52,075 bases of DNA from Bacillota bacterium. GTDB taxonomy: Bacteria > Bacillota > Syntrophomonadia > Syntrophomonadales > Syntrophomonadaceae. Position numbers and translations under genes: made by a program. The notes beneath the pieces are model-generated. The model was not told where the DNA came from, made no database searches, and saw only the letters and a list, made by a program, of their open reading frames with translations. The DNA is taken from the NCBI GenBank assembly GCA_022706565.1, contig JAKJCH010000001.1:4064-56138 (forward strand), in the 5' to 3' direction. Positions 2,257-48,887 of this stretch are shown here, one piece after another; the first letter of the stretch is position 1; every line of letters starts with the position of its first letter.

Positions 2257-4350
2257 ATGAAGATTAGAGAGATTATGACCATTGATCCGATCTGTCTTCG
2301 TCCTGATCAGACAGTGGGAGAGGCAGCCATCATTTTTATGGAGCATAAGATCGATGGCGCCCCGGTGGTGAATGGGAACCGTGAATTAATCGGCCTATTC
2401 ACAAAGACTCACATATATCGGGTAGTAAACGGAGACCGGGATTTTGATCGTCCGGTGGCGCAGATGATGAGCACCGACCTGCTCGTCGGACATCCGGATG
2501 ATGAATTCGGTGATGTAGTCAATGCGACGGTGCCACGTCTACCGGTGGTTGATGACCGGGGTCGGGTCGTGGGTATTTGTACCCGCGGGGACATCGCCAA
2601 AGCCTTCTTTGATTCGTATCAGAATATCTCGCTGGAATTGGACGCCATTATCAATTCAGCCCATAATGTTATCGTATCGATTGACCACAATGGCTTTATA
2701 AAGGTTTGGAATGCAGCTGCGGAGAGAATCCTGGGCTCTAAAGCCTCCGAGGTCAGTGGGCGTCATATCCAAGATGTCCTGCCCGAGAGCGACCTTACCC
2801 GCGTTATAGATATCGGTACAGCTGAACCCCTGAAAAGGATCAGTTTGAGGGGCCATCAATTTTTGTCCAATCGTTCTCCTATTATTAAGGAAGGAGAAAT
2901 TGTCGGGGCGGTGGCGGTGCTCCTGGACGTATCTGAATTGGAGAGTGTTTCAAGGGAGTTGGAACGCTTCAAGGAACTCAACCGGGAGTTGGATGCGATT
3001 ATTGACTCCTCTTTTGATGGTTTATATATTACCGACGGAAATGGTATCACCCTTCGCCTCAATAAGGCTTATGAAAGGATCACCGGCATCAGCGCCGATG
3101 AATTCATTGGCAAAAATGTGACCACTATTGAGTCTGAGGGAATCGTCTCGGAATCAGTTACAGCGTTGGTACTGGAGAAGCGCAGTCCGGTGACCATCAG
3201 CCAGGAGATGCGTACCGGTAAAATGACTTTGGCTACCGGCAACCCGGTTTTCGATGATAAGGGCAACATCTTCCGGGTGGTTAGCAACGTCCGTGATATC
3301 ACCGAACTCAATGCTTTGAGACAAAAACTGGAAGAGTTTGAAGGCCTGAGCCAGCACTATGAATCGCAGCTGCGCACTCTGAAATTGCAATACGTTGGTT
3401 CAGACAATATTGTGACCAATTCTAGTCGCATGATTACTCTGCTATCCACGGTGATCAGGCTGGCTCAGTTTGATTCCACCATTTTGATTACGGGTGAATC
3501 TGGTACCGGTAAGGAATTGATTGCCGAGGTAATTCACAACAACAGCAGCCGCCGGGACCAACCCTTTATAAAAGTCAATTGCGGGGCAATTCCTGAGACA
3601 CTGCTGGAATCGGAACTATTCGGTTATGATTATGGTGCTTTCACGGGTGCCAAGAAAGAAGGCAAACCGGGTTATTTTCAGTTGGCGGCGGGAGGAACAC
3701 TGTTTCTGGATGAGATCGGCGATCTGCCCTTAAATCTGCAGGTTAAACTGTTGCGGGTACTGCAGAACAAGGAGTTCGTCCGCGTCGGCGGCACCAAACC
3801 CCTGCAAGTTGATGCCAGAATCGTGACGGGCACCAATCGCAATCTGCTGGAGCTGGTGGAGAAAAAACTGTTTAGGGAGGACCTTTACTACCGCCTTAAT
3901 GTGGTCCCCATCAATGTCCCCCCTTTGCGGGACAGGATCGAGGATATTCCTCCCCTGGTTGCTCATTTCACCAAGTTGTACAACCGCAAACACAAGCTCA
4001 ACCGCAGGTTTGCCCCCGAAGTAGTAGATGTTTTTATGGGTTATAATTGGCCTGGCAACGTGCGAGAGTTGGAAAACCTTATAGAAAGATTGATAGTTGT
4101 AGGTACCAAAGATCTTCTGACCATCGACGACCTGCCAGCATTTTTGGTAAACTCCGGTCCAGTAAATCCTGAGGTAACGGTCTCCGGTATCATACCCCTG
4201 CAAGATGCAGTGGAGAATGTAGAGAAGCAGATCCTCGAGAAGGCTTATCAACAATACCGCACCACCCGGCAAATGGCTGCAGTGCTTAAGGTGGACGCAT
4301 CGACTGTGGTTAGAAAAGCAGCCAAATATGGTATATCACATACCAAATAA
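2257..4350 (+). CDS. Sigma-54-dependent activator with CBS pair and two PAS domains
   Basis: Bacterial enhancer-binding protein of 697 residues. Order of parts: two CBS motifs (about 1-120; REIMTIDPICLRPDQTVGEA begins the first), PAS (about 122-235), second PAS (about 236-355), AAA+ sigma-54 interaction domain (about 382-620), Fis-type helix-turn-helix (about 650-690). Visible motifs are Walker A GESGTGKE at 413-420, the sigma-54 contact loop GAFTGA at 460-465, Walker B LFLDEIGDL at 482-490, and NWPGNVREL. All parts needed for sigma-54 activation are intact. CBS pairs commonly bind adenine nucleotides, and PAS domains bind small ligands, so it probably senses a metabolite or energy state. It sits directly upstream of palindromes, a sigma-54 promoter and beta-oxidation genes, which are its likely targets. 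The ribosome site (AAGGTGG) is far from the ATG. Confidence 0.92.
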   Translation: MKIREIMTIDPICLRPDQTVGEAAIIFMEHKIDGAPVVNGNRELIGLFTKTHIYRVVNGDRDFDRPVAQMMSTDLLVGHPDDEFGDVVNATVPRLPVVDDRGRVVGICTRGDIAKAFFDSYQNISLELDAIINSAHNVIVSIDHNGFIKVWNAAAERILGSKASEVSGRHIQDVLPESDLTRVIDIGTAEPLKRISLRGHQFLSNRSPIIKEGEIVGAVAVLLDVSELESVSRELERFKELNRELDAIIDSSFDGLYITDGNGITLRLNKAYERITGISADEFIGKNVTTIESEGIVSESVTALVLEKRSPVTISQEMRTGKMTLATGNPVFDDKGNIFRVVSNVRDITELNALRQKLEEFEGLSQHYESQLRTLKLQYVGSDNIVTNSSRMITLLSTVIRLAQFDSTILITGESGTGKELIAEVIHNNSSRRDQPFIKVNCGAIPETLLESELFGYDYGAFTGAKKEGKPGYFQLAAGGTLFLDEIGDLPLNLQVKLLRVLQNKEFVRVGGTKPLQVDARIVTGTNRNLLELVEKKLFREDLYYRLNVVPINVPPLRDRIEDIPPLVAHFTKLYNRKHKLNRRFAPEVVDVFMGYNWPGNVRELENLIERLIVVGTKDLLTIDDLPAFLVNSGPVNPEVTVSGIIPLQDAVENVEKQILEKAYQQYRTTRQMAAVLKVDASTVVRKAAKYGISHTK

Positions 4351-4375: not shown

Positions 4376-4395
4376 TTGATGCATCAATGCAACTT
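4376..4395 (+). promoter_or_regulatory. Candidate activator site 1
   Basis: TTGATGCA-TCAA-TGCAACTT. It fits the consensus TTGATGCA-N4-TGCAACAA, an imperfect palindrome with TGCA half-cores. The centre lies about 317 bases upstream of the predicted sigma-54 start. Binding by the adjacent activator is inferred. Confidence 0.5.
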
Positions 4396-4396
4396 A

Positions 4397-4416
4397 CCGT
4401 TGCACTGGTGCATCGT
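4397..4416 (-). promoter_or_regulatory. Candidate activator site 2 (inverted)
   Basis: On the minus strand this reads CGATGCA-CCAG-TGCAACGG. It is a second copy of the motif in opposite orientation, its centre about 22 bases from site 1, that is about two helical turns. Confidence 0.45.
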
Positions 4417-4420
4417 TTTT

Positions 4421-4440
4421 TAGATGCATAAACGCAACGC
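4421..4440 (+). promoter_or_regulatory. Candidate activator site 3
   Basis: TAGATGCA-TAAA-CGCAACGC. A weaker third copy, its centre about 24 bases after site 2, so sites 1-3 could lie on one face of the helix. Confidence 0.4.
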
Positions 4441-4676
4441 GAGAAACCAAGAAAGATCCCCGCCTTTTCAATAGGGAACTTCCAATACTGGTCTTGTGCA
4501 AGTCGTTACATGAGACAACCTGTCGTAATGTTGGGGAGTATTCATTCCTTGTTCAAGGCCACATAGGAACCTTGATGCACCGATGCAACAAAATGTTAGG
4601 GGACGGGGCCACCCGCATCCCCCTTTTAAAACCCAATCGCCGCGGCTTGGGGGCATTTTAGAATTATACCTGATTA
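4441..4676. other. Enhancer-to-promoter spacer without a gene
   Basis: Apart from candidate site 4 I see no gene, hairpin terminator or sigma-A promoter here. A 62-codon minus-strand frame at 4468-4656 has no recognisable content. The region is best explained as DNA looped between the distant activator sites and the sigma-54 promoter. Confidence 0.45.
4572..4591 (+). promoter_or_regulatory. Candidate activator site 4 (best copy)
   Basis: TTGATGCA-CCGA-TGCAACAA is the most symmetrical copy; only the base beside each TGCA core breaks the dyad. Its centre is about 121 bases upstream of the predicted sigma-54 start, the usual distance for an enhancer-binding-protein site. Confidence 0.55.
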
Positions 4677-4692
4677 TGGCATGATACTTGCT
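4677..4692 (+). promoter_or_regulatory. Sigma-54 promoter for the Com-like gene and probably the beta-oxidation operon
   Basis: TGGCATGATACTTGCT matches the -24/-12 consensus TGGCACG-N4-TTGCW at all but one position; GG and GC are separated by exactly ten bases. Transcription should start near 4703. The gene upstream encodes a sigma-54 activator with an intact GAFTGA loop, which supports the assignment. Confidence 0.85.
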
Positions 4693-4746
4693 TAGTAAAT
4701 ATAGAAGATACGCGATGAGTTGTCGGGAGATCAGGGGTTAAGGGGA

Positions 4747-4929
4747 GTGATTTTTATTATTCTAAAGGATTTCCGGTGCCACAAATGCCAAAAGCTTTTA
4801 GGGAAGTACTTGGAATGCCGGCAGTTAGAAATCAAGTGCCCGCGCTGCGGGGCACAGAATAGTCTGCGTGACACAGCTGTATTTACGAAAATAATTAAGG
4901 ATTCACTTACCGCCGTCAGTTCGATTTAA
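4747..4929 (+). CDS. Com-like small zinc-ribbon protein
   Basis: A protein of about 60 residues containing FRCHKCQKLLGKYLE followed by EIKCPRCGAQNSL: two Cys-x2-Cys pairs in the arrangement of phage Mu Com (RCKNCNKLL ... EIRCPRC). Mu Com binds a stem-loop in the mom mRNA and allows its translation. The start is unclear: a GTG at 4747 sits too close to AGGGGA, a TTG at 4720 lacks a good site, and an ATT at 4756 would have ideal spacing and would give an N-terminus about as short as that of Mu Com. It is the first gene after the sigma-54 promoter and is followed by a terminator and then the thiolase operon. The family match is clear; a regulatory role here is inferred from position. Confidence 0.75.
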   Translation: MIFIILKDFRCHKCQKLLGKYLECRQLEIKCPRCGAQNSLRDTAVFTKIIKDSLTAVSSI

Positions 4930-4982
4930 TTGGAATCAACCCAACTACATATCGCTTTATAGTATCTGTTAGAGAGCCTTTG

Positions 4983-5020
4983 AGCCCCGCCAGACAAATA
5001 CGTCTGCGGGGTTGTTTTTA
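4983..5020 (+). terminator. Terminator or attenuator before the thiolase operon
   Basis: CCCCGC-C-AGAC pairs with GTCTGCGGGG with one bulged C and a loop of about six bases, followed by GTTTTTA. It is a convincing intrinsic terminator between the Com-like gene and the beta-oxidation genes. Sigma-54 transcripts must read through it to reach thiolase unless a second promoter is used. Confidence 0.8.
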
Positions 5021-5031
5021 TCTTCAATAAT

Positions 5032-5109
5032 AAGGAGGTGAATTGTTCCAGTCACGGTAGGACTCTAGTATTTTTAGCAGTCAATGAACGATTTAAGGAG
5101 GATGAGAGA
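5032..5109 (+). promoter_or_regulatory. Thiolase leader with two Shine-Dalgarno sequences
   Basis: An AAGGAGG at 5032 has no in-frame start at proper spacing for thiolase; the only start behind it, TTG at 5043, ends after five codons. A second AAGGAGG at 5095 serves the thiolase ATG at 5110. Between them TTGTTC (5043-5048) and TAGTAT (5066-5071), 17 apart, could be a weak sigma-A promoter that would make thiolase partly independent of the upstream terminator. All of this is tentative. Confidence 0.35.
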
Positions 5110-6465
5110 ATGTCGGATTTTGTACAGAAACTTGATATGAAGAGGGCGGATTATCCGAAGACTGTGCCTGTTACCGGATTTGGCGAGAGGAAGCCTGATT
5201 ACAAAGGTATGGGCCGCAAACTGGACAACCCCTATGCCAAACTACGGGAAGTCGTGTGTGTTGCCGCAGCTCGTACCCCTTATGGTGTATTGGGCGGCAA
5301 GCTTAAAGAATATGATGCACCCCAGCTGGGCGCTCTGGCCATCAAGGAAGTTATGCGCCGGGTAGAGGGCAAGGTCAAAGGCGAAGATGTGGACTACGTG
5401 TACATGGGCGAAGTCGTCCCCGCCGGCGTAGGCCAAGTCCCCAGCCGCCAAGCCACCCTTTTGGCAGGTTTGCCGGAGTCGGTTCCTTCCATCACTATCA
5501 ACAAAGTCTGTTCCTCCGGTTTAAAAACCGTTGACCTGGGCGTACAGCTGATCAAAGTCGGCCGGGCCGATATCGTTATCGCCGGCGGTATGGAAAGCAT
5601 GACCAACTGCCCCTATTCGCTGCCCGATGAAAGATTTGGCGGCCGGATGGGATTACCTAATGGACGGCTGGTAGACTTGATGGTCTATGATGGCCTGTGG
5701 GATGCCTTCTATAACCGTCACATGGCTATACATGGTTCGGAAGTATCTGACGAATTTGGCATCACCCGGGAAGACATGGATTGGTGGGCATACCTTTCCC
5801 AAACTAGGGCTGTGGATGCAATGGAAAATGGCCGCCTCGACGACGAGATATTCCCGGTTGAAATCAAGAAGGGCAAAGAAATCATGGCCAAGGACGAAGG
5901 CCCTCGCCCCGGCACCACCATCGAAGCCCTTGCCAAGCTTCCTCCGGTATTCAATCACAAGAGCCCTGTAACCGGCGGCCCGGGCAGCGTTACAGCAGGT
6001 AATGCTCCGGGTGTCAACGATGGAGGCAGCGCAGTCATGCTCATGAGCCGTGAAAAGGCGGATGAGTTAGGATTGAAGCCGCTTTTCACCATCGTAGACT
6101 ATGCCGAGGTATCCCAACAGACCAAGGATATAGCTACCGTTCCCGGCCTCTCCATCAAGAAGGTACTGGAACAGAACGGCCTTACTGCTGATGATATCAA
6201 GCTGGTGGAAGCCAACGAGGCCTTCGCAGCCGTGGTTCTGGTCAGCTGTATGAAGATCGTAGGCATGAGCAAGGAAGACATGATCAACAAGGTCAATGTC
6301 AACGGATCCGCTATAGCCTATGGACACCCGATCGGTTCTTCCGGGGCTCGGATCCTGATGACCCTCGGCTACGAATTAAAACGCCGCGGCGGCGGGTACG
6401 GCGTATGTGGAATCTGCTCCGGCCACGCTCAAGGCGATTCTATGCTGATATATGTTGAGCCATAA
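5110..6465 (+). CDS. Acetyl-CoA C-acetyltransferase (thiolase) with N-terminal extension
   Basis: Cleaves acetoacetyl-CoA (or longer 3-ketoacyl-CoA) with CoA to acetyl-CoA in the last step of beta-oxidation. Chosen start ATG 5110 with AAGGAGG gives 451 residues; an in-frame GTG at 5038 is unsupported. Visible are NKVCSSG (nucleophile C134), NEAFA (369-373), GHPIGSSG (H406) and the second cysteine C436. Two oddities: the catalytic core begins only at about residue 46 (REVVCVAAARTP), so there is a charged N-terminal extension absent from the usual 390-residue enzymes; and the canonical C-x-GGG-x-G segment reads CSGHAQG. It is followed by the dehydrogenase after 45 bases, which makes degradation of 3-ketoacyl-CoA the likely direction. 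Confidence 0.92.
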   Translation: MSDFVQKLDMKRADYPKTVPVTGFGERKPDYKGMGRKLDNPYAKLREVVCVAAARTPYGVLGGKLKEYDAPQLGALAIKEVMRRVEGKVKGEDVDYVYMGEVVPAGVGQVPSRQATLLAGLPESVPSITINKVCSSGLKTVDLGVQLIKVGRADIVIAGGMESMTNCPYSLPDERFGGRMGLPNGRLVDLMVYDGLWDAFYNRHMAIHGSEVSDEFGITREDMDWWAYLSQTRAVDAMENGRLDDEIFPVEIKKGKEIMAKDEGPRPGTTIEALAKLPPVFNHKSPVTGGPGSVTAGNAPGVNDGGSAVMLMSREKADELGLKPLFTIVDYAEVSQQTKDIATVPGLSIKKVLEQNGLTADDIKLVEANEAFAAVVLVSCMKIVGMSKEDMINKVNVNGSAIAYGHPIGSSGARILMTLGYELKRRGGGYGVCGICSGHAQGDSMLIYVEP

Positions 6466-6510: not shown

Positions 6511-7365
6511 ATGGAAATCAAAAAGGTAATGGTCATCGGTGCGGGCCAGATGGGCGGGGGCATAGCTCAAGTTTCAGCCCAGGCTGGTTTTGAGACTGTT
6601 CAATATGACATCAACATGGAATTGGTCGACAAGGGCATTGCTCTCATCAAAAAGAACCTGGGCCGTGATGTTGAAAAAGGCAAACGCACCCAGGAAGATA
6701 TGGATGCCATTCTAGCCAGGATCAAACCCTCGGTCAGTCTGGAAGATGCCGCTGACTGCGACCTGATCGTAGAAGCCATTGTCGAAAACTTCGATATCAA
6801 GAAAAAGGTGTTTGAGGAATTGGACCGGATCGCTCCTCCCCATGCGATTCTGGCCAGCAATACATCCTCCCTGCCTATTACCCAGATAGCGGCCTGCACC
6901 AAACGCCCCGGTCAGGTAATCGGTATGCACTTCATGAATCCAGTTCCAGTAATGAAACTGGTGGAAGTAATCCGCGGACTGGCTACCACCGATGATGTCT
7001 ATAACACCATCGAGGAAGCCTCCATCAAGATGGGCAAAACCCCGGTTTGGTGTAAGGACGTTCCTGGCTTCATCTCCAACCGCGTTCTGCAGGTGATGAT
7101 CAACGAGGCGCTGTGGGAGCTCTATGAAGGTGTTGCTCCAGCCGAGAATATCGACAATATCATGAAGCTGGGCATGAACCATCCCATGGGTCCCTGTGCA
7201 CTGGCCGACCTCATTGGATTGGATACCGTGCTAGCGATTCTCAATGTAATGTACACCGGCTATGGTGATCCCAAATACCGTCCCTCCCCTCTCCTGAAGC
7301 AATATGTGCAAGCCGGATGGCTGGGACGCAAAACCGGCAAGGGTATATTCGACTACAGCAAATAG
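6511..7365 (+). CDS. hbd: 3-hydroxybutyryl-CoA dehydrogenase
   Basis: Oxidises 3-hydroxybutyryl-CoA to acetoacetyl-CoA with NAD. The 284-residue protein has the Rossmann motif GAGQMGGGIAQ at 10-20, the catalytic HFMNPVP with H140, and the C-terminal helical domain (NRVLQVMINEALWELYEGV, GPCALADLIGLD). Length and motifs match the short clostridial Hbd family. GAGGAGGAAGG precedes the ATG. It lies between thiolase and crotonase in a tightly spaced operon; in a syntrophic context it would feed NADH to hydrogen or formate formation, which is inference. Confidence 0.95.
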   Translation: MEIKKVMVIGAGQMGGGIAQVSAQAGFETVQYDINMELVDKGIALIKKNLGRDVEKGKRTQEDMDAILARIKPSVSLEDAADCDLIVEAIVENFDIKKKVFEELDRIAPPHAILASNTSSLPITQIAACTKRPGQVIGMHFMNPVPVMKLVEVIRGLATTDDVYNTIEEASIKMGKTPVWCKDVPGFISNRVLQVMINEALWELYEGVAPAENIDNIMKLGMNHPMGPCALADLIGLDTVLAILNVMYTGYGDPKYRPSPLLKQYVQAGWLGRKTGKGIFDYSK

Positions 7366-7398
7366 GTCCATGAAGTCTAGGCCAAGGGAGGGATAGAA

Positions 7399-8181
7399 AT
7401 GGAATTCGCCAATGTGTTGCTGGATAAGATCGACAACATCGCTATTCTGACCATCAACCGCCCCAAGGCGCTAAACGCACTAAATAGGGACACTTTGTTG
7501 GACATTAAAGCGGCGGTCGAGGTTTTCCGGGATGATCCGCAAGCTGATGTGATGATAATCAAAGGCGCCGGCGACAAATCGTTTGTCGCCGGGGCGGACA
7601 TAACCTATATGCTGAATATCAACGCCATGCAGGCCAGGGAATTTGGCTTGTTGGGTCAGAGTGTCTTCTCACTGATCGAAACCATCGAGAAACCAGTAAT
7701 AGCTGCCATCAATGGTTTTGCCCTCGGCGGCGGGTGTGAATTGGCTATGGCCTGTGATTTCCGCATCTGCTCCGACAAGAGTAAATTCGGCCAACCCGAG
7801 GTGGGACTGGGAGTTACCCCCGGCTTCGGCGGTACCCAGCGCCTGCCACGACTGGTGGGCACGGGAATGGCCAAACAACTTCTGTACAGCGCTGACATAA
7901 TTGAAGCCGATGAAGCACTGCGAATCGGTTTGGTCAACGCGGTAGTCGAAGCCGACGCCCTGATGGATTATGTTATGAAACTGGCTCAACGGATCGCCTC
8001 CAAGGGGCAAATTTCGGTACGTCTGTGTAAAGTGGCGGTTAACGAGGGTATGCAAGCCGACATTAACCGGGCGATGACCATAGAAGCTGATGTTTTTGGT
8101 CTCTGTTTCGCTACGGATGATCAAAAGGAAGGCATGAGCGCCTTCGTAGAAAAACGCAAAGCCACATTTACCGGTAAATAG
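7399..8181 (+). CDS. crt: Enoyl-CoA hydratase (crotonase)
   Basis: Hydrates crotonyl-CoA to 3-hydroxybutyryl-CoA. The 260 residues show SFVAGADI (CoA-binding and oxyanion region), GGGCELAMACD with E114, and FGQPEVGLGVTPGFGGTQRL with E134; both catalytic glutamates of the hydratase family are in place, which argues for hydratase rather than isomerase or other crotonase-fold activity. AGGGAGGG precedes the ATG. It is separated from the acyl-CoA dehydrogenase gene by only 18 bases. Confidence 0.95.
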   Translation: MEFANVLLDKIDNIAILTINRPKALNALNRDTLLDIKAAVEVFRDDPQADVMIIKGAGDKSFVAGADITYMLNINAMQAREFGLLGQSVFSLIETIEKPVIAAINGFALGGGCELAMACDFRICSDKSKFGQPEVGLGVTPGFGGTQRLPRLVGTGMAKQLLYSADIIEADEALRIGLVNAVVEADALMDYVMKLAQRIASKGQISVRLCKVAVNEGMQADINRAMTIEADVFGLCFATDDQKEGMSAFVEKRKATFTGK

Positions 8182-8199
8182 AAAGGAGCTGGAAAATAG

Positions 8200-9348
8200 A
8201 TGGATTTTAGTTTAAGTGAAGAGTCATTAATGATGCGGGATATGTTCCGCAAGTTTTCCAAGAACGAGGTAGAACCGCTGGCTGCGGAAATCGACCGCAC
8301 CCATCGATTCCCGATGGAAACCTTCCAGAAAATGGCTGGACTTGGCCTGTGCGGTCTTCCCATTCCTGAAGAATGGGGCGGAGCCGGGGCTACTTATCTG
8401 GACTTCGCCATATTTGTGGAAGAGTTGGCCAAATGCTGCGCTTCCACAGCAGTTATTATGAGCGTTCACACTGGTCTGGGCTGCATGAGCACTTGGCTCT
8501 ATGGCGGCCAGCGGGTCAAGGAAAAATATCTTAGAGCTTTGGCCTCCGGAGAGATCGTAGGAGCCTATGCGTTAACCGAACCCAATGCCGGTTCCGATGC
8601 TGCCTCCATCAAATGCAAAGCCGAGGACAAGGGAGACTATTTCCTGGTCAATGGCAGTAAAATATTTATAACCAATGGCGGAATCGCCACCACCTATTGC
8701 ACTTTCGTCAAGACCGATCCCACTCAGGGACCTGGTAAAGGAATAACCTGCCTGCAGATCGAGAAGGACACCCCCGGTTTCACTATGAGCAAACCAGTCC
8801 AAAAGATGGGCATGAACGGCTCACCCACTGTCGAACTCTATTTCGAAGATGTCAAAGTACCCAAAGAAAACATGCTCGGCGTTCAAAACGACGGGTTCCA
8901 GGTGGCCATGGGCCTCCTTGCCGGTGGACGGATCACTATAGCCGCCCAGGGATTAGGCATCGGAGAAGGGGCTCTGGAGTTCACCAACCAGTACATCAAA
9001 GAAAGACAACAATTCGGCAAACCTTTGGCAGCCAATCAAGGGGTTCAGTTTATGGTGGCTGATATGGCCACTGCCCTGGATGCGGCTCAGCTGTTGGTAT
9101 ATCGGGCTGCCTGGCTGAAGGACAACAAGTTGCCTCACAACAAAGAGGCATCCATGGCCAAGAAGTTTGCCACAGACACCAGCATGGAAGTTTGCACCAA
9201 TTGCGTGCAGTTGATGGGCGGTTACGGTTACTGCAACGAGTTCCCGATTGAGCGCATGATGCGCGACGTCAAGATCACCCAGATTTACGAGGGTTCCAAC
9301 CAGATCCAACGCATGATTATCGGTCGTGAAGTAATCGGCAAATGGTAA
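8200..9348 (+). CDS. Short-chain acyl-CoA dehydrogenase (butyryl-CoA dehydrogenase type)
   Basis: FAD enzyme oxidising butyryl-CoA to crotonyl-CoA. The 382-residue protein shows AYALTEPNAGSDA and FITNGG (FAD and substrate binding), the C-terminal helical domain with RQQFGKPLAANQGVQFMVAD, and IYEGSNQIQRM with the catalytic base E364, all diagnostic. Length is normal. No etfA or etfB gene lies in the window, so its electron carrier must be encoded elsewhere. AAGGAGC lies 12 bases before the ATG. Specificity for C4 rather than longer substrates cannot be fixed from sequence alone; the name bcd is therefore not assigned. Confidence 0.93.
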   Translation: MDFSLSEESLMMRDMFRKFSKNEVEPLAAEIDRTHRFPMETFQKMAGLGLCGLPIPEEWGGAGATYLDFAIFVEELAKCCASTAVIMSVHTGLGCMSTWLYGGQRVKEKYLRALASGEIVGAYALTEPNAGSDAASIKCKAEDKGDYFLVNGSKIFITNGGIATTYCTFVKTDPTQGPGKGITCLQIEKDTPGFTMSKPVQKMGMNGSPTVELYFEDVKVPKENMLGVQNDGFQVAMGLLAGGRITIAAQGLGIGEGALEFTNQYIKERQQFGKPLAANQGVQFMVADMATALDAAQLLVYRAAWLKDNKLPHNKEASMAKKFATDTSMEVCTNCVQLMGGYGYCNEFPIERMMRDVKITQIYEGSNQIQRMIIGREVIGKW

Positions 9349-9472
9349 TCAGATTCCAACAGTCTCGAGTCAGCGATTTTCACCCGGGAGATCGAACCCA
9401 GAACGAGGTCCTAAGTTGTTATCCAACACGAACTTCAGGTAGACCCCCAAAAATAATGGAGGAGGTAGATCA

Positions 9473-10450
9473 ATGGGTAAGATTAACAAGATAACCCTAA
9501 AAGAAGCTGCCGGGCTAATCAAAGACGGCGACATGCTGTCGTTCAGCGGCTTCACAATTTGGCGCCGCCCGATGGCTCTGATCTATGAATTGGTGCGTCA
9601 GGGTAAAAAGGATCTGCACTTGTTTGAAGTCAACGGTGGTACTCATACCGAGATACTGGCAGGCGCAGGCTGTGTGAAAATCTGGGAATCCTGCTGGGTA
9701 GGACACGAACTCTATGGTAAATTAGGTGAATCCGTAGCCCGGGGACAGGTTGAAGGTTCTATTCTAGTTGAAGATTACTCCCATGCCCAGTGTGTTGCCC
9801 GACTACTGGCTGGCGCTTATGGTCTTCCCTTCTTCCCCACCGCTTTGTCCATGGGTACCGATATACTGAATCCCAAGTTCGACATGCTCGGCAAAGCCGG
9901 CCTGCGGGATGGCTCTAATCCCAAAATACCGTTGAAAAAATACGACACTATACCTGACCCCATGTACGATATGGGCAATATCCTGCTGATGCCAGCCGCC
10001 AATCCCGATTGGGCTTTAGTATACGCCCAACAGGTTGGGGACGAGGGCACTGTCCGGGTTCTGGCCCAAACTTATGTGGATCTGGAAGTTATAAAGGCAG
10101 CCAAGAAGGTTATCGTCATCGCTGAAGAGATCGTCCCGGACAGCTACTTGAGAGATGAGCCTGCGCTGAACATTGCTCCTGGTTACGCCATCGATTACGT
10201 CATCGAACAGCCATTCGGTGCACATCCTACTGGCTCCCAGTTCTTCTATGACGTCGATGCCGATTTTATCAGAGCTTTCTATCAGGCTTCCAAGAGTGCC
10301 GACGGGTACAAGAAATTTGCCGATGAGTGGATCTTTGGGGTGGATGGATTTGATGAATACCTGGAAAAACTAGGGGTAAATCGGCTCCTGAAACTGAAAG
10401 CCAATAGTGTCATGGGCTATTCGACTACTATGAAAAGGGGGACGAGGTAG
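9473..10450 (+). CDS. CoA-transferase subunit A, glutaconate CoA-transferase family
   Basis: Class I CoA-transferase alpha subunit, 325 residues, close to the 320 of GctA. The N-terminus KINKITLKEAAGLIKDGDML and the FSGFTIWRRPMALIYELVRQ segment are typical of the family, which differs from the shorter acetate/acetoacetate (AtoD) type. It ends in TAG directly abutting the ATG of subunit B, so the two are translationally coupled. GGAGGAGGT lies before its ATG. Position behind thl-hbd-crt-acyl-CoA dehydrogenase suggests that it activates the fatty acid by taking CoA from acetyl-CoA; substrate is inferred, and a dicarboxylic or branched acid is also possible. Confidence 0.88.
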   Translation: MGKINKITLKEAAGLIKDGDMLSFSGFTIWRRPMALIYELVRQGKKDLHLFEVNGGTHTEILAGAGCVKIWESCWVGHELYGKLGESVARGQVEGSILVEDYSHAQCVARLLAGAYGLPFFPTALSMGTDILNPKFDMLGKAGLRDGSNPKIPLKKYDTIPDPMYDMGNILLMPAANPDWALVYAQQVGDEGTVRVLAQTYVDLEVIKAAKKVIVIAEEIVPDSYLRDEPALNIAPGYAIDYVIEQPFGAHPTGSQFFYDVDADFIRAFYQASKSADGYKKFADEWIFGVDGFDEYLEKLGVNRLLKLKANSVMGYSTTMKRGTR

Positions 10451-11254
10451 ATGACTGCAAAAAACTATGCGGAAAACTACAAAGGCGCTGATTTGCTAGC
10501 AGTAGCTGCGGCCAGAGAAGTGCAGGACGGTGACATCGTTTTCGCCGGCACCGGTCTGCCCATGCTGGCCATAGCATTGGCCCAGATTACCAACGCCCCC
10601 AATGCAGTGTGTATATACGAAGCCGGCAGCATTGACGGCAGGCCCAAAGACCTGCCCGCTTCGGTAGGTGACGCCCGCTGCGCTACCCAATCATCAGTTG
10701 CTGCTGGTCTGACCGAAGCATTCTACGGCCAGCTCCACAGCGGTTATGTAGATCTGGCCTTCCTGGGCGGAGCCGAGATCGACAAGTATGGTAATGTCAA
10801 TACTACTGTGGTGGGAGATTATGCAGCTCCTAAGAAACGTTTCACCGGCAGCGGCGGCAATCCTGATATCAACTCTTTTGCTAGAAGAACCGTCTTCATC
10901 ATGGTTCAGGAAAAACGCCGCTTTAAGGAGCATGTGGATTACATCACCTCTCCTGGCTGGCGTATTCCTGAATGGCCCTCTGGAGAGATGAAATCCAAGA
11001 AGGAAGTATACGGAAAGTTTTTCAATGGCGGGCTCTCAGCGGTTATCACCAATATGGCAGTGTTCCGCTTCGACGAAGACGGGATTATGTACCTGGATAC
11101 GGTTCATCCCGGATTTACTCCCGAGCAGGTAAAGGAAAACTGCGAATTCGATCTGAACATCTCCAGGTGCAGAGGTGTGACTGAAAGGCCAACCGTTGAA
11201 GAAATTGAGCTTCTGTATAAGGTGGTCGATAAAGACGGTATATTCCTTCCCTAA
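10451..11254 (+). CDS. CoA-transferase subunit B, glutaconate CoA-transferase family
   Basis: Beta subunit, 267 residues, the same size as GctB. It carries the conserved VFAGTGLPMLAIALAQ segment, CIYEAGSIDG with E57 as the probable catalytic glutamate that forms the enzyme-CoA thioester, and DLAFLGGAEIDKYGNVNTT, a family hallmark. The assignment of E57 rests on alignment from memory with the GctB glutamate. It starts immediately after the subunit A stop codon and is the last gene of the tightly packed part; a strong terminator follows about 105 bases later. Confidence 0.88.
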   Translation: MTAKNYAENYKGADLLAVAAAREVQDGDIVFAGTGLPMLAIALAQITNAPNAVCIYEAGSIDGRPKDLPASVGDARCATQSSVAAGLTEAFYGQLHSGYVDLAFLGGAEIDKYGNVNTTVVGDYAAPKKRFTGSGGNPDINSFARRTVFIMVQEKRRFKEHVDYITSPGWRIPEWPSGEMKSKKEVYGKFFNGGLSAVITNMAVFRFDEDGIMYLDTVHPGFTPEQVKENCEFDLNISRCRGVTERPTVEEIELLYKVVDKDGIFLP

Positions 11255-11472
11255 ACGGGATTATGCTACGCGGAATGAATTAGCGGCATAGCGATAACAA
11301 GCCCGTTACCTGTGCGCAGTACCATAATAATCTTGGGTAACACCTCCCCTTCCTATATGCCCTGGCATTCTTGCCAGGGCTCTTTTATTAGAGGAATCGA
11401 AGGAATTCTCTCGAATAAAAGAAAAGGACCTGGAATTTCTTGGTCCAACAACCACTAGAATGGAGGGAGTTT
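11255..11472 (+). other. Spacer between CoA-transferase B and CaiB-type gene
   Basis: Contains the terminator above. No clear sigma-A or sigma-54 promoter was found for the next gene, although it must either have one or depend on read-through. Confidence 0.4.
11359..11386 (+). terminator. Terminator after the CoA-transferase genes
   Basis: GCCCTGGCA (11359-11367) and TGCCAGGGC (11372-11380) form a perfect nine-base-pair stem with a four-base loop followed by TCTTTTATT. It ends the main beta-oxidation operon. Confidence 0.88.
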
Positions 11473-12654
11473 ATGAGTTTACCACTGGAAGGAATTAGGG
11501 TTTTGGACTTGTCCAGATACCTACCTGGGCCTTTTTGCACCCAGATACTGGCAGATTTTGGAGCGGAGGTCATCAAGGTTGAAGATCCCCGAGGGGGTGA
11601 CCTGGGGCGCACCCTGACGCCGTGTATCGAGGGGGAGAGTGCTCGTTTTCCTACTGTAAACCGCAATAAGAAAAGCATTACCCTGGATCTCAAGCAGTCT
11701 TCAGGCAAGGATATCTTCAGGAAACTGGTCACCAACGCCGATGTGGTGGTCGACCAGTTCCGGCCCGGCGTCATGAAGAAGATGGGCTTGGATTATGATG
11801 CCTTAAAGACTGTGAATAAGGGCATCATATATTGCGCCATAACTGGATACGGATGCACCGGGCCTCTAAAGGATGCTGCCGGCCATGACCTGAATTATCT
11901 TAGCTTGGCCGGAGTTACCGGATTAACCGGAGTTTATAAAGGGCGCCCGGCCATGTCGGGAGCACAGATAGCTGATATCGCCGGAGGTACCCTTTATTCG
12001 GTCATCGCCATCCTGTTGGCCTTGGCCAGCCGTGAAAAAACCGGGGAAGGCCAGTTTTGCGATGTGGCCATGCTGGATTGCTCCATAAGTCTGCTGGCCT
12101 ATACGCTGGGCGAGTGGGCCGGCTGGGGCAGATTGCCGGAGATGGGCAACGACGTGCTGACAGGAGGTTACGCCTGCTATAACGTTTATGAGACCAAGGA
12201 CGGTAAACATGTCAGCCTTGGGGCGGTGGAAGATAAATTCTGGGCCCAGTTCTGCCAGAAGCTGGACCGGGCTGAATATGTTAAGCCCCAGTGGAATCCC
12301 GATCTTCAGGCGGATATTCAGTCTGACATCCGGGAAATAATGCTGACCAAGACCAGAGACGAGTGGGTGGAATTCTTCGCCAACGATGACATCTGCTTCA
12401 CTCCGGTTCTGACAATGGAAGAGATGTGCAACCATCCCCAGGTGGCGGCACGGGACATGATCCTTAAACTGGCCAACTTCAAGGGTTCAGGGCGGGAGAT
12501 CCCCCTGACCGGAGTTCCTATCAAGTTATCAGGGACCCCGGGGGCAGCCAAACTTGAGTTCCCAGCCCTGGGACAGGATACGGAAGCAATTCTCAGGAAA
12601 ATCGGGTACTCGGACCAACAAGTTGCGGAGTTCAGGCAAAAAGGGATAATATAA
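11473..12654 (+). CDS. CaiB/BaiF family CoA-transferase
   Basis: Class III CoA-transferase, 393 residues, starting LPLEGIRVLDLSRYLPGP and AEVIKVEDPRGGD, the family signature. QIADIAGG contains D168, the expected catalytic aspartate that carries the acyl group. GPFCTQILADFGAEVIKVE binds CoA. The ATG at 11473 with GGAGGGAGTT is preferred over an in-frame start at 11440. Members move CoA between carboxylic acids or racemise 2-methylacyl-CoA, and sequence alone does not decide. It stands alone between two terminators, downstream of the beta-oxidation operon and in the same direction, so a role in substrate activation is plausible but inferred. Confidence 0.88.
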   Translation: MSLPLEGIRVLDLSRYLPGPFCTQILADFGAEVIKVEDPRGGDLGRTLTPCIEGESARFPTVNRNKKSITLDLKQSSGKDIFRKLVTNADVVVDQFRPGVMKKMGLDYDALKTVNKGIIYCAITGYGCTGPLKDAAGHDLNYLSLAGVTGLTGVYKGRPAMSGAQIADIAGGTLYSVIAILLALASREKTGEGQFCDVAMLDCSISLLAYTLGEWAGWGRLPEMGNDVLTGGYACYNVYETKDGKHVSLGAVEDKFWAQFCQKLDRAEYVKPQWNPDLQADIQSDIREIMLTKTRDEWVEFFANDDICFTPVLTMEEMCNHPQVAARDMILKLANFKGSGREIPLTGVPIKLSGTPGAAKLEFPALGQDTEAILRKIGYSDQQVAEFRQKGII

Positions 12655-25748: not shown

Positions 25749-25792
25749 ATCGGGTAGGAGGTAGGTGATTAGTTCACCTACCGACCTCCCAC

Positions 25793-25824
25793 AGCACCGT
25801 ACGTACCGTTCGGTATACGGCGCT
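25793..25824 (-). ncRNA. Group II intron domain V
   Basis: On the minus strand AGCGCCGTA pairs with TACGGTGCT; the inner ACCG-loop-CGGT hairpin and the two-base bulge complete the 32-base catalytic domain V fold. The domain is followed by a long domain VI stem GGTAGGTGA/TCACCTACC. Confidence 0.85.
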
Positions 25825-25838
25825 TCCAAAGTTTACAC

Positions 25839-27248
25839 TTACTTAGCAGAGTAGCATTCCGTCAAACTGAGATATCCGGCACGTTTGAATCTCTCGTTGG
25901 GTAAGGCTCTTAATAAGATTGGGCTATGGGCAGTACGCCAATAGCCTTTTCTTGTGTTTGCCCACATCCATGCCTGTTCTTCCTGGATTCCTGAGCGCTT
26001 GAGGTTCTCGAAACGTGTGCGGATTCTCTTCCATCGTTTCCATGTCACCATCCGTATACGACTTCTAATCCATTCATCCAAGCCCTGTAGCAGGTTCTTG
26101 GCGTCCGCCAGTTTGAAGTAATTCATCCAGCCCCGTACCACTTGGTTCAGCCGGACTTTTCTGGCCTCAATTCCCATCCCGTTACTGCGTCCGGTGATTT
26201 CTCGGATTTTGTCCTTGAATTTCCGGACACTCTTGGGATGTATCCTCAGCCTTCCTTCTCCTTTGTGGATGTAGAAGCTGTACCCCAGATATTTGACCCT
26301 GTTCACATGCGTCACCTGTGTCTTCTCCCTGTTTACCTTCAGGAATAGCTTCCCTTCGATGTATGGGAGGATATGGCCCAGCGTGCGGTTGGCTGCCTTC
26401 TTGCTCTTGCAGAATATCAGCAGGTCATCTGCGTAACGCACAAAACGGTGTCCCCGCCTCTCCAGTTCCCGGTCGCATTCATTCAGCATGATGTTCCCAA
26501 GTAGTGGACTTAGTGGACCGCCTTGCGGTACTCCTTCCGGGCTGTCCTCAAACATCCCGCCCGCCATGACTCCCGCTCGCAGGAATTTATGGATGAGCGA
26601 GATTACTCGTCCATCCTTTATCGTTTCCGACAATATCTGGATGAGCCTGCTCTGGTTGACCGTGTCAAAATACCTTTCCAAATCCATATCAACTACGTAT
26701 CTGTAGCCCTCTGTGATATTGGTCTGGCATCTTCTGAGCGCATCATGCGCACTTCTTCTCGGTCTGAATCCAAAGCTGTTGTCTGAGAATTGCTTTTCAA
26801 AGATTGGACTTAGGACTTGGCATATCGCTTGTTGGATTAGTCTGTCCACGACGGTTGGTATCCCTAGTTTCCTGGTTTTCCCGTTCTCTTTGGGTATTTC
26901 TACCCGGCGCACGGGTTTGGGACGGTAAATACCTTCCCGGATGGATTGTATGAGTTTCCCCTGGTTTTCTTTCAGGAAGGGTAGAAGTTCATCTACCTGC
27001 ATACCGTCAATTCCACCCGCGCCTTTGTTCCTCTTTACCTGCTTGTAGGCGCGGTTCAGATTGTCTCTGCCCAGGATTTGCTCCAACAATCCTTCCCTCT
27101 GCTGGTTGGTGTCGGTGCTGTCGGTTTCAGTCATCTTCAGTGACCCGCACGCTTCTGCATTCTCTCTCTGTTCCGCAGATACCCTTTGCAGATAGCCTTC
27201 CGTTCGAAGTTGTCTGTGCTTTAGCTTGTCACTTTCAGTAACTTTCAT
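25839..27248 (-). CDS. ltrA: Group II intron reverse transcriptase/maturase
   Basis: Intron-encoded protein of 469 residues from ATG 27248 (GGAGG eight bases upstream). Reverse-transcriptase domain with NKGAGGIDGM, SFGFRPRRSAHDAL, GVPQGGPLSPLLGNI and the catalytic YADD (about residue 275), then the maturase domain (VRLNQVVRGWMNYFKLADAK). No HNH endonuclease domain follows, as in class C or D introns. The frame is intact, so the element may still be active or have arrived recently. Confidence 0.95.
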   Translation of the reverse strand: MKVTESDKLKHRQLRTEGYLQRVSAEQRENAEACGSLKMTETDSTDTNQQREGLLEQILGRDNLNRAYKQVKRNKGAGGIDGMQVDELLPFLKENQGKLIQSIREGIYRPKPVRRVEIPKENGKTRKLGIPTVVDRLIQQAICQVLSPIFEKQFSDNSFGFRPRRSAHDALRRCQTNITEGYRYVVDMDLERYFDTVNQSRLIQILSETIKDGRVISLIHKFLRAGVMAGGMFEDSPEGVPQGGPLSPLLGNIMLNECDRELERRGHRFVRYADDLLIFCKSKKAANRTLGHILPYIEGKLFLKVNREKTQVTHVNRVKYLGYSFYIHKGEGRLRIHPKSVRKFKDKIREITGRSNGMGIEARKVRLNQVVRGWMNYFKLADAKNLLQGLDEWIRSRIRMVTWKRWKRIRTRFENLKRSGIQEEQAWMWANTRKGYWRTAHSPILLRALPNERFKRAGYLSLTECYSAK

Positions 27249-27651
27249 GACCCACACCTCCTCTGGTTCAGCCCTTCCCTTTGCTTCTAGAAAGCTCCGG
27301 TACTATGGCCTCGGCTGACTTCTCACGACAAATCTTGTTTCAACCGGGCTTCTTACTCTGTTTCCGCCCGTCCGCGAGATCTCCCCGGGTAAGAACGCAG
27401 TCTTTCCTTCCATCCATCTGCCACATTTACACCGCAAGTTTCCGGATAGTTTTGGGCTTCAGTTTGTTAGGCAACCTCACCCAACTTTCGATGCCTTATG
27501 TGATTTCTGTTCGTCAGACCGGAAGTTTGCCGCCGGCTTCCTTCAGATTCCTCGTCACCGAGGACACCCTTGCCCTTGGCTATGTGCTTGGCACTATCAA
27601 CCCGCACTAGGGACTTTCACCCATTAGACTGCGCCCATGCCGGGCGCACCT

Positions 27652-48698: not shown

Positions 48699-48887
48699 TT
48701 AAAAAAAACCCCACTGGACCGTGGCGCCGCGAGTTTTAACCTGCCTAGCAGGGGGGTGTTCTCTCATATACTTTATGTGTCCCTCCAAATAGGGCTTGCA
48801 AGTGGTATATGAAGGCCGAACTCCCAAAGTTTTTGTGTTGGCAAAAACTATACGGCCGTTCACGCGAACAGCAGGGGTTTCTGACAT
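48699..48887 (-). CDS. Doubtful 62-residue hypothetical protein
   Basis: An open frame from ATG 48887 to the TAA within a T-rich stretch. The product is basic and aromatic (CKPYLEGHIKYMREHPPARQ) with no recognised motif. There is no Shine-Dalgarno sequence before the ATG, and no start further inside is better. Its amino-acid mix is not absurd, so it is listed with low confidence. Confidence 0.25.
   Translation of the reverse strand: MSETPAVRVNGRIVFANTKTLGVRPSYTTCKPYLEGHIKYMREHPPARQVKTRGATVQWGFF

Follow-up and report, generated by a model that had tools for sequence, protein, structure and literature searches.

We propose, with moderate confidence, that a Com-type RNA switch of the phage kind controls beta-oxidation in syntrophic Bacillota through Com-dependent antitermination. 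The proposal stems from a window of 52,075 nucleotides (the whole stretch of DNA analyzed here) from a Syntrophomonadaceae bacterium, in which one strand holds, in order, a sigma-54 activator gene, a set of repeats, a sigma-54 promoter, com, a hairpin, and a beta-oxidation operon. A terminator-like hairpin with a U-tract lies in the leader, and a predicted protein site overlaps one of its arms. The locus is most likely one of Com-dependent transcription attenuation, and its sense is probably antitermination, a sign that we infer from the geometry of the site and from phage Mu.

The genome from which the window derives is a draft of 1.77 Mb that is 88% complete. The predicted start of the com-thiolase transcript lies at an exact sigma-54 site, next to the gene for a sigma-54 activator (Table 1). 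The pattern TGGCAYRNNNNTTGCW has its only exact match in the window at this site (4677-4692), and the marks of a sigma-54 operon are present: a -24/-12 promoter, an adjacent activator, and rpoN in the genome. Upstream of com, a 16-bp repeat occurs in four copies, one of them inverted, which are probably sites for the activator. Thiolase has its own Shine-Dalgarno sequence at 5095, with its start ATG at 5110, and the thl-hbd-ech-acd order of the operon is repeated in relatives. The minus strand of the window also carries group II intron RNA domains (25749-27564; three Rfam matches) and a 6S RNA (48704-48880; 89.4 bits).

Table 1. Features of the com-thiolase locus, with positions counted from the first letter of the window
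Feature	Position	Strand	Basis
Sigma-54 activator gene: CBS x2, PAS x2, AAA+ sigma-54 interaction domain, HTH_50	2257-4350	+	Pfam
Enhancer-like repeat 1, GATGCATCAATGCAAC	4378-4393	+	
Enhancer-like repeat 2, inverted copy	4399-4414	-	
Enhancer-like repeat 3	4423-4438	+	
Enhancer-like repeat 4	4574-4589	+	
Sigma-54 -24/-12 promoter, TGGCATGATACTTGCT	4677-4692	+	Exact consensus match
com-like zinc-ribbon gene; start at GTG 4747 or at a near-cognate codon just 3' of the GTG	4747-4929	+	PF10122
Bipartite Com operator (predicted), GAGAGCC-TTT-GAGCCCC, GAGAGCCTTTGAGCCCC	4972-4988	+	Fits SELEX consensus
Terminator-like hairpin; 5' arm is the second operator half-site	4983-5013	+	MFE, compensatory stem changes across relatives
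U-tract, TTGTTTTT	5012-5019	+	Sequence
Extended Shine-Dalgarno-like element without evident gene, AAGGAGGTGAATTG	5032-5045	+	
Thiolase, first enzyme gene of the operon	5110-6465	+	Thiolase_N, Thiolase_C (Pfam)
Downstream operon genes: 3-hydroxyacyl-CoA dehydrogenase, enoyl-CoA hydratase, acyl-CoA dehydrogenase, two CoA-transferase subunits, family III CoA-transferase	6511-12654	+	Pfam

As an earlier note on this DNA had supposed, a Com-family zinc ribbon is encoded directly 5' of thiolase: its product scores 36.1 bits against Pfam PF10122 (Zn_ribbon_Com; curated cut-off, 22.9), the open frame around it spans 4705-4929, and the zinc-ligand cysteines (CxxC...CPRC) are present. In alignments, the four zinc-ligand cysteines and an EIKCPRCG core are common to this protein and phage members of the family. 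The predicted structure has four strands and a C-terminal helix (mean pLDDT, 86.6); a sequence search of the PDB found no Com structure, and Foldseek with a 60-residue model returned no match below an E value of 0.7. The start of com is odd in this clade. Either the GTG at 4747 nearly touches the Shine-Dalgarno sequence or the start is a near-cognate ATT or ATA (4747-4762), and GTG-ATT-NNN-ATA is kept at this place in the two nearest relatives; the unusual start codon could itself be regulatory.

Leaders that carry GAGCCCC (all of L001-L030 except L022) show GAGAGCC-N2-4-GAGCCCC just 5' of the hairpin, with GAGGGCC and two one-base variants also represented. We derived this motif from the leaders before comparing it with a published SELEX consensus (Nowacka et al. 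2019, PMC6483171). In that study, SELEX with the zinc finger of Haemophilus sputorum Com yielded a bipartite consensus, NGAGNNCC(N)2-3GAGNNCCNN; GAG(N)2CC occurred twice in 868 of 999 sequences, and duplex RNA was bound weakly. The operator in the window fits the consensus GAGNNCC-N2-3-GAGNNCC, which was obtained with the H. sputorum domain and not with the window Com. A spacer of 4 was seen in 2 of 68 operator contexts. In this clade the half-sites are imperfect complements of each other (AG faces CC, giving an A-C mismatch, in 58 of the 68), so the Com hairpin that they would make is not predicted to form alone.

The pattern tracks com genome by genome. It is found once in the window's own genome, at 4972-4988; with up to two mismatches allowed, that genome gives three matches, including the real one, versus three for the reversed control, which is chance level. 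Across 54 family genomes there are 59 matches versus 6 for the reversed pattern, and these occur in all 26 genomes with com and in 2 of the 28 without it, the latter at about the chance rate. In these family counts, the match credited to genome G030 is a copy before CoA-transferase subunits and not its com copy, and that credited to G025 lies on contig C9 and not on C84.

The hairpin that the earlier note had placed between com and thiolase was recovered at 4983-5013, with a U-tract running to 5019 (MFE, -20.6 kcal/mol; z, -4.26; equaled by none of 200 dinucleotide shuffles). It resembles an intrinsic terminator and ends 96 nt before the thiolase ATG. A simple terminator scanner did not list it, and Rfam gave no family at the site either at gathering level or at permissive E values. 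RNAalifold on a MAFFT alignment yielded only three pairs because loop lengths vary, and it was replaced by an anchored-arm analysis of 68 unique motif contexts from the Bacillota set. A GGGG or GGAG clamp lies 10 to 39 nt 3' of the operator in 57 of these (8.8% by chance), and the 11 contexts without a clamp were left out of the stem, T-tail, and Shine-Dalgarno-like counts. Of the variable stem pairs, the first is preserved as G-C, A-T, T-A, or G-T in 54 of 57 contexts (31.4 when permuted) and the second in 39 of 57 (28.4 permuted), and a T-rich tail follows 50 of the 57 hairpins versus 10% in the control. Leaders of genus g4 and some trans copies have a weak U-tract or a weak close hairpin.

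In the window, the predicted protein site (4982-4988) overlaps the 5' arm of the terminator. Under a strict rule, the second half-site forms a terminator 5' arm at 46 of 72 operators versus 9 of 487 lone half-sites. Almost no change is seen in the half-sites, whereas the terminator stem varies with compensation, as expected if a protein site is superimposed on a terminator. Beyond the hairpin, 31 of the 57 leaders contain GG[AG]GGTG, compared with 18 of 2000 random places; a Shine-Dalgarno-like element of this kind, without a gene, resembles the Shine-Dalgarno elements that stabilize mRNAs.

PF10122 was detected in 26 of the 54 family genomes, spread over 11 of 23 genera, whereas all 14 control genomes gave no match. 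From 35 PF10122 rows, 27 com places (L001-L027) were detailed, the rest being second copies on the same stretch or not fetched; L028-L030 were left out of the linkage counts as the same places as L005, L004, and L009. The linkage suggested by the earlier note holds in these relatives: an operator lies 3' of com at 26 of 27 loci, a count that takes in two one-base variants (AGAGGCC at L019 and the first copy, GAGGAGCC, at L020), and the gene after com is a thiolase at 20 loci, a CoA-transferase at 4, and an enoyl-CoA hydratase, an acyl-CoA dehydrogenase, and another gene at 1 each. Syntrophomonas wolfei subsp. methylbutyratica JCM 14075 (L070) is a named example. An operator is also found 5' of com at 8 of the 27 loci. 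A homologue of the activator lies upstream at 21 of 27, and 20 of 27, all among those 21, have a strong sigma-54 site 5' of com; these sites were scored by an ad hoc weight matrix, and the same scan gave no strong site at any of the six loci without the activator.

The one locus without an operator is L022 (G025:C84), where a second com copy with a different hairpin precedes an acyl-CoA dehydrogenase gene. At L019/L153 (G030:C74), com and a shifted operator precede a gene for a Na+/sulfate symporter, next to an IclR regulator. Genus g7 (L003, L004, L005, L007, and L009) has a tandem com pair, and behind each of the two genes stands an operator-hairpin whose stem sequence is its own. In a phylum sample of 398 genomes, 20 matched Com, 17 of them above the cut-off. 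Beyond the family, an operator again lies near a beta-oxidation gene at L156, L157, and L158; none was found at the phylum loci L159-L163, and com of Pelotomaculum (L116) sits in a different context and lacks an operator. We also looked for the thiolase in 16 of the 28 genomes without com, and 11 reached the cut-off. Only G034 (a single contig; 63% identity) combines activator, sigma-54 site, and thiolase in this layout, and com, operator, and terminator-like site are all absent from its thiolase leader; the others have no close counterpart of the operon. This one case fits a coupled gain or loss.

Eighteen of the 59 family matches lie away from com. An operator precedes cobO and methylmalonyl-CoA-mutase-type genes in 4 of 4 g4 genomes and 4 of 5 g7 genomes, a PGA_cap gene in 4 of 5 g7 genomes (with a family III CoA-transferase next in L145), a C_GCAxxG_C_C gene in 2 of 5 g7 genomes, and CoA-transferase subunits in G030. 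Three copies (G008:C46, G021, and G046) look like chance matches, one being inside an ORF. By weight matrix, a strong sigma-54 site is absent at the copies away from com except for a candidate in L147, and the window's own genome has no trans operator copy.

Outside the family, we assembled 137 com loci, dropped 20 identical ones to leave 117, and allowed spacers of 2 to 5. The bipartite motif occurs between -80 and +150 nt from the end of the com match at 51 of the 117 loci versus 0.23 expected, an expectation computed from the rest of the same loci; 66 lack the full motif, and Mu's own site is a partial match. In 33 of 39 unique motifs, the variable NN of one half is the full complement of the NN in the other, versus 12.8 motifs when permuted, and none of 5000 permutations reached the observed count; these loci are related and their kinship stays in the permutation control, so the counts overstate independence. 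As a pattern in sequences, this complementarity supports the occurrence in nature of the hairpin suggested by SELEX. Among 57 downstream ORFs at other com loci, Bacillota L064, L069, and L079 included, 30 match D12 methyltransferase, 7 N6_N4 methylase, and 3 Mom. Where the locus is proteobacterial or from a phage, a median of 37 nt separates the operator from the start codon of the target, and T-rich tails are present at 6 of 51, which is the Mu-like, translational layout. Ten further loci (L251-L260, from eight genomes of the family of L100 and the genome of L139) include one with the full motif and several with visible looser half-sites. Plasmid records gave one com match, and phage records gave 17, all below 60% identity.

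An operator half-site within a terminator was also seen at phage com loci: viral L202, L211, L215, L232, L241, and L243, and genome locus L133. The second half-site is inside a terminator at 5 of 39 viral operators versus 3 of 436 lone half-sites, and at 1 of 30 operators on non-Syntrophomonadaceae genome contigs (L133, in a phage head gene cluster) versus 7 of 772 lone half-sites; at L202, a similar hairpin was recognized by eye. The stems mostly differ from those of Bacillota. At the loci scanned for downstream genes, these encode a portal protein (L211), scaffold and major head proteins (L241), a major head protein (L202), and head proteins (L133), and such com-operator-terminators, several of them before portal, scaffold, or major head genes, are possible late-gene attenuators.

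In the proposed mechanism, sigma-54 activation would yield a leader transcript that encodes Com and then reaches the terminator-like hairpin before thiolase. Com made from the leader would bind GAGAGCC-NNN-GAGCCCC as it emerges from RNA polymerase, before the GGGG arm is made; with the second half-site held in a Com hairpin, the terminator would be blocked and polymerase would enter the operon. When Com is absent, most transcripts would end after com. The 5' arm of the hairpin doubles as the second half-site, so an RNA bound by Com should be unable to fold into the hairpin, and the reverse; polymerase also finishes the operator before it makes the 3' arm, which could let bound Com act ahead of the terminator. 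As the A-C mismatch weakens the Com hairpin in most leaders, its formation should depend on the protein. In this scheme, Com would provide a second checkpoint downstream of sigma-54 activation; operator copies 5' of com would confer autoregulation, and those before cobO and acyl-CoA mutase or CoA-transferase operons would form a small trans regulon in some genera. The earlier note had imagined a post-transcriptional switch like that of Mu, and it did not mention the sigma-54 promoter, the four repeats, the activator gene, or the operator. A putative Com recognition sequence does lie at the hairpin, and the idea of translational opening gave way, because a hairpin without a start codon that ends in a U-tract is better fitted by transcription attenuation.

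Several other explanations bear on the same observations. Com and the extended Shine-Dalgarno element might instead set ribosome access to the processed operon mRNA or its decay, a translational or stability control that we regard as rather unlikely. The Mu-like operators of proteobacteria and phages, close to start codons and seldom followed by T-rich tails, favor it, as does the Shine-Dalgarno-like element in over half of the leaders, whereas the T-rich tails behind most Bacillota hairpins speak against it and the thiolase Shine-Dalgarno sequence and ATG lie 80 to 100 nt 3' of the hairpin. It is also unlikely that Com binds the operator yet promotes termination, or just represses itself, as negative feedback on a strong sigma-54 transcript. 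RNA-binding proteins that promote termination exist, and operators before com would suit autoregulation of either sign; however, binding of the SELEX type should compete with the terminator, whose 5' arm is the second half-site, and Mu Com acts as an activator. The weak binding of duplex RNA reported in PMC6483171 likewise weighs against this feedback.

Small genes commonly have a terminator after them, and the hairpin could in principle be the ordinary terminator of com, with thiolase served by its own promoter and the conservation unrelated to Com. We consider this very unlikely: the half-sites are near-invariant beside a compensating stem, the pattern co-occurs with com, matches the SELEX consensus, and recurs away from com before CoA-transferase and mutase operons, and a simple scan of the plus strand from hairpin to thiolase found no sigma-70-like site. 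Beyond Com-dependent antitermination at this locus, we would put at about even the wider idea that Com-dependent attenuators form a general class, defined by a leader-encoded zinc ribbon, a two-half-site operator, and a terminator sharing the second half-site. Phages would use it before portal, scaffold, or capsid genes, and in fatty-acid-oxidizing Bacillota it would have been domesticated into a second checkpoint that follows sigma-54 control, with coenzyme-B12-dependent acyl-CoA mutase and CoA-transferase operons as trans targets.

Chromosomal use of com is not new, since com-like genes have been described in Pseudomonas, where they precede genes for the bacteriocin llpA and for levansucrase (PMC6240691). 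The available portion of that 2018 review leaves the more general role of Com-like proteins still to be explored; the loci it describes resemble ours in having a com-like gene 5' of a gene other than mom and differ in their targets, and that portion gives no operator or terminator for them. The portion of the Syntrophomonas wolfei proteomics available to us names regulators and no such switch (PMC4324140), and in the open-licence literature on Com, attenuation, and Syntrophomonas regulation we found no description of a natural operator, the terminator overlap, or the link to beta-oxidation. A native operator across the Com family, a testable mechanism, and a target list can now be given, and the switch may provide a point of regulatory control over syntrophic fatty-acid oxidation, which is a bottleneck in communities that form methane.

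In protein-dependent antiterminators of the BglG/LicT, HutP, and TRAP types, the RNA element recognized by the protein overlaps an intrinsic terminator, and the two structures exclude each other. The predicted Com site likewise overlaps a predicted terminator, but the protein and RNA element are unrelated to theirs, and the gene for the regulator lies in the same leader, just 5' of the site. The CBS/PAS/AAA+/HTH activator, repeated upstream sites, and -24/-12 promoter are those of activator-controlled sigma-54 catabolic operons, to which the locus would add a second, RNA-level checkpoint after the promoter. Closest is the com/mom system of phage Mu (PF10122; the mom mRNA TIS), which shares the protein family, a small gene directly 5' of its target on the same strand, an RNA hairpin between the genes, and a GA-containing recognition sequence. 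In Mu, the target is DNA modification, the site is partial, and the TIS includes the target start codon, whereas here the target is beta-oxidation, beginning with thiolase, under sigma-54 control, the bipartite operator is complete, and the hairpin, with its U-tract, stands about 96 nt before the start codon.
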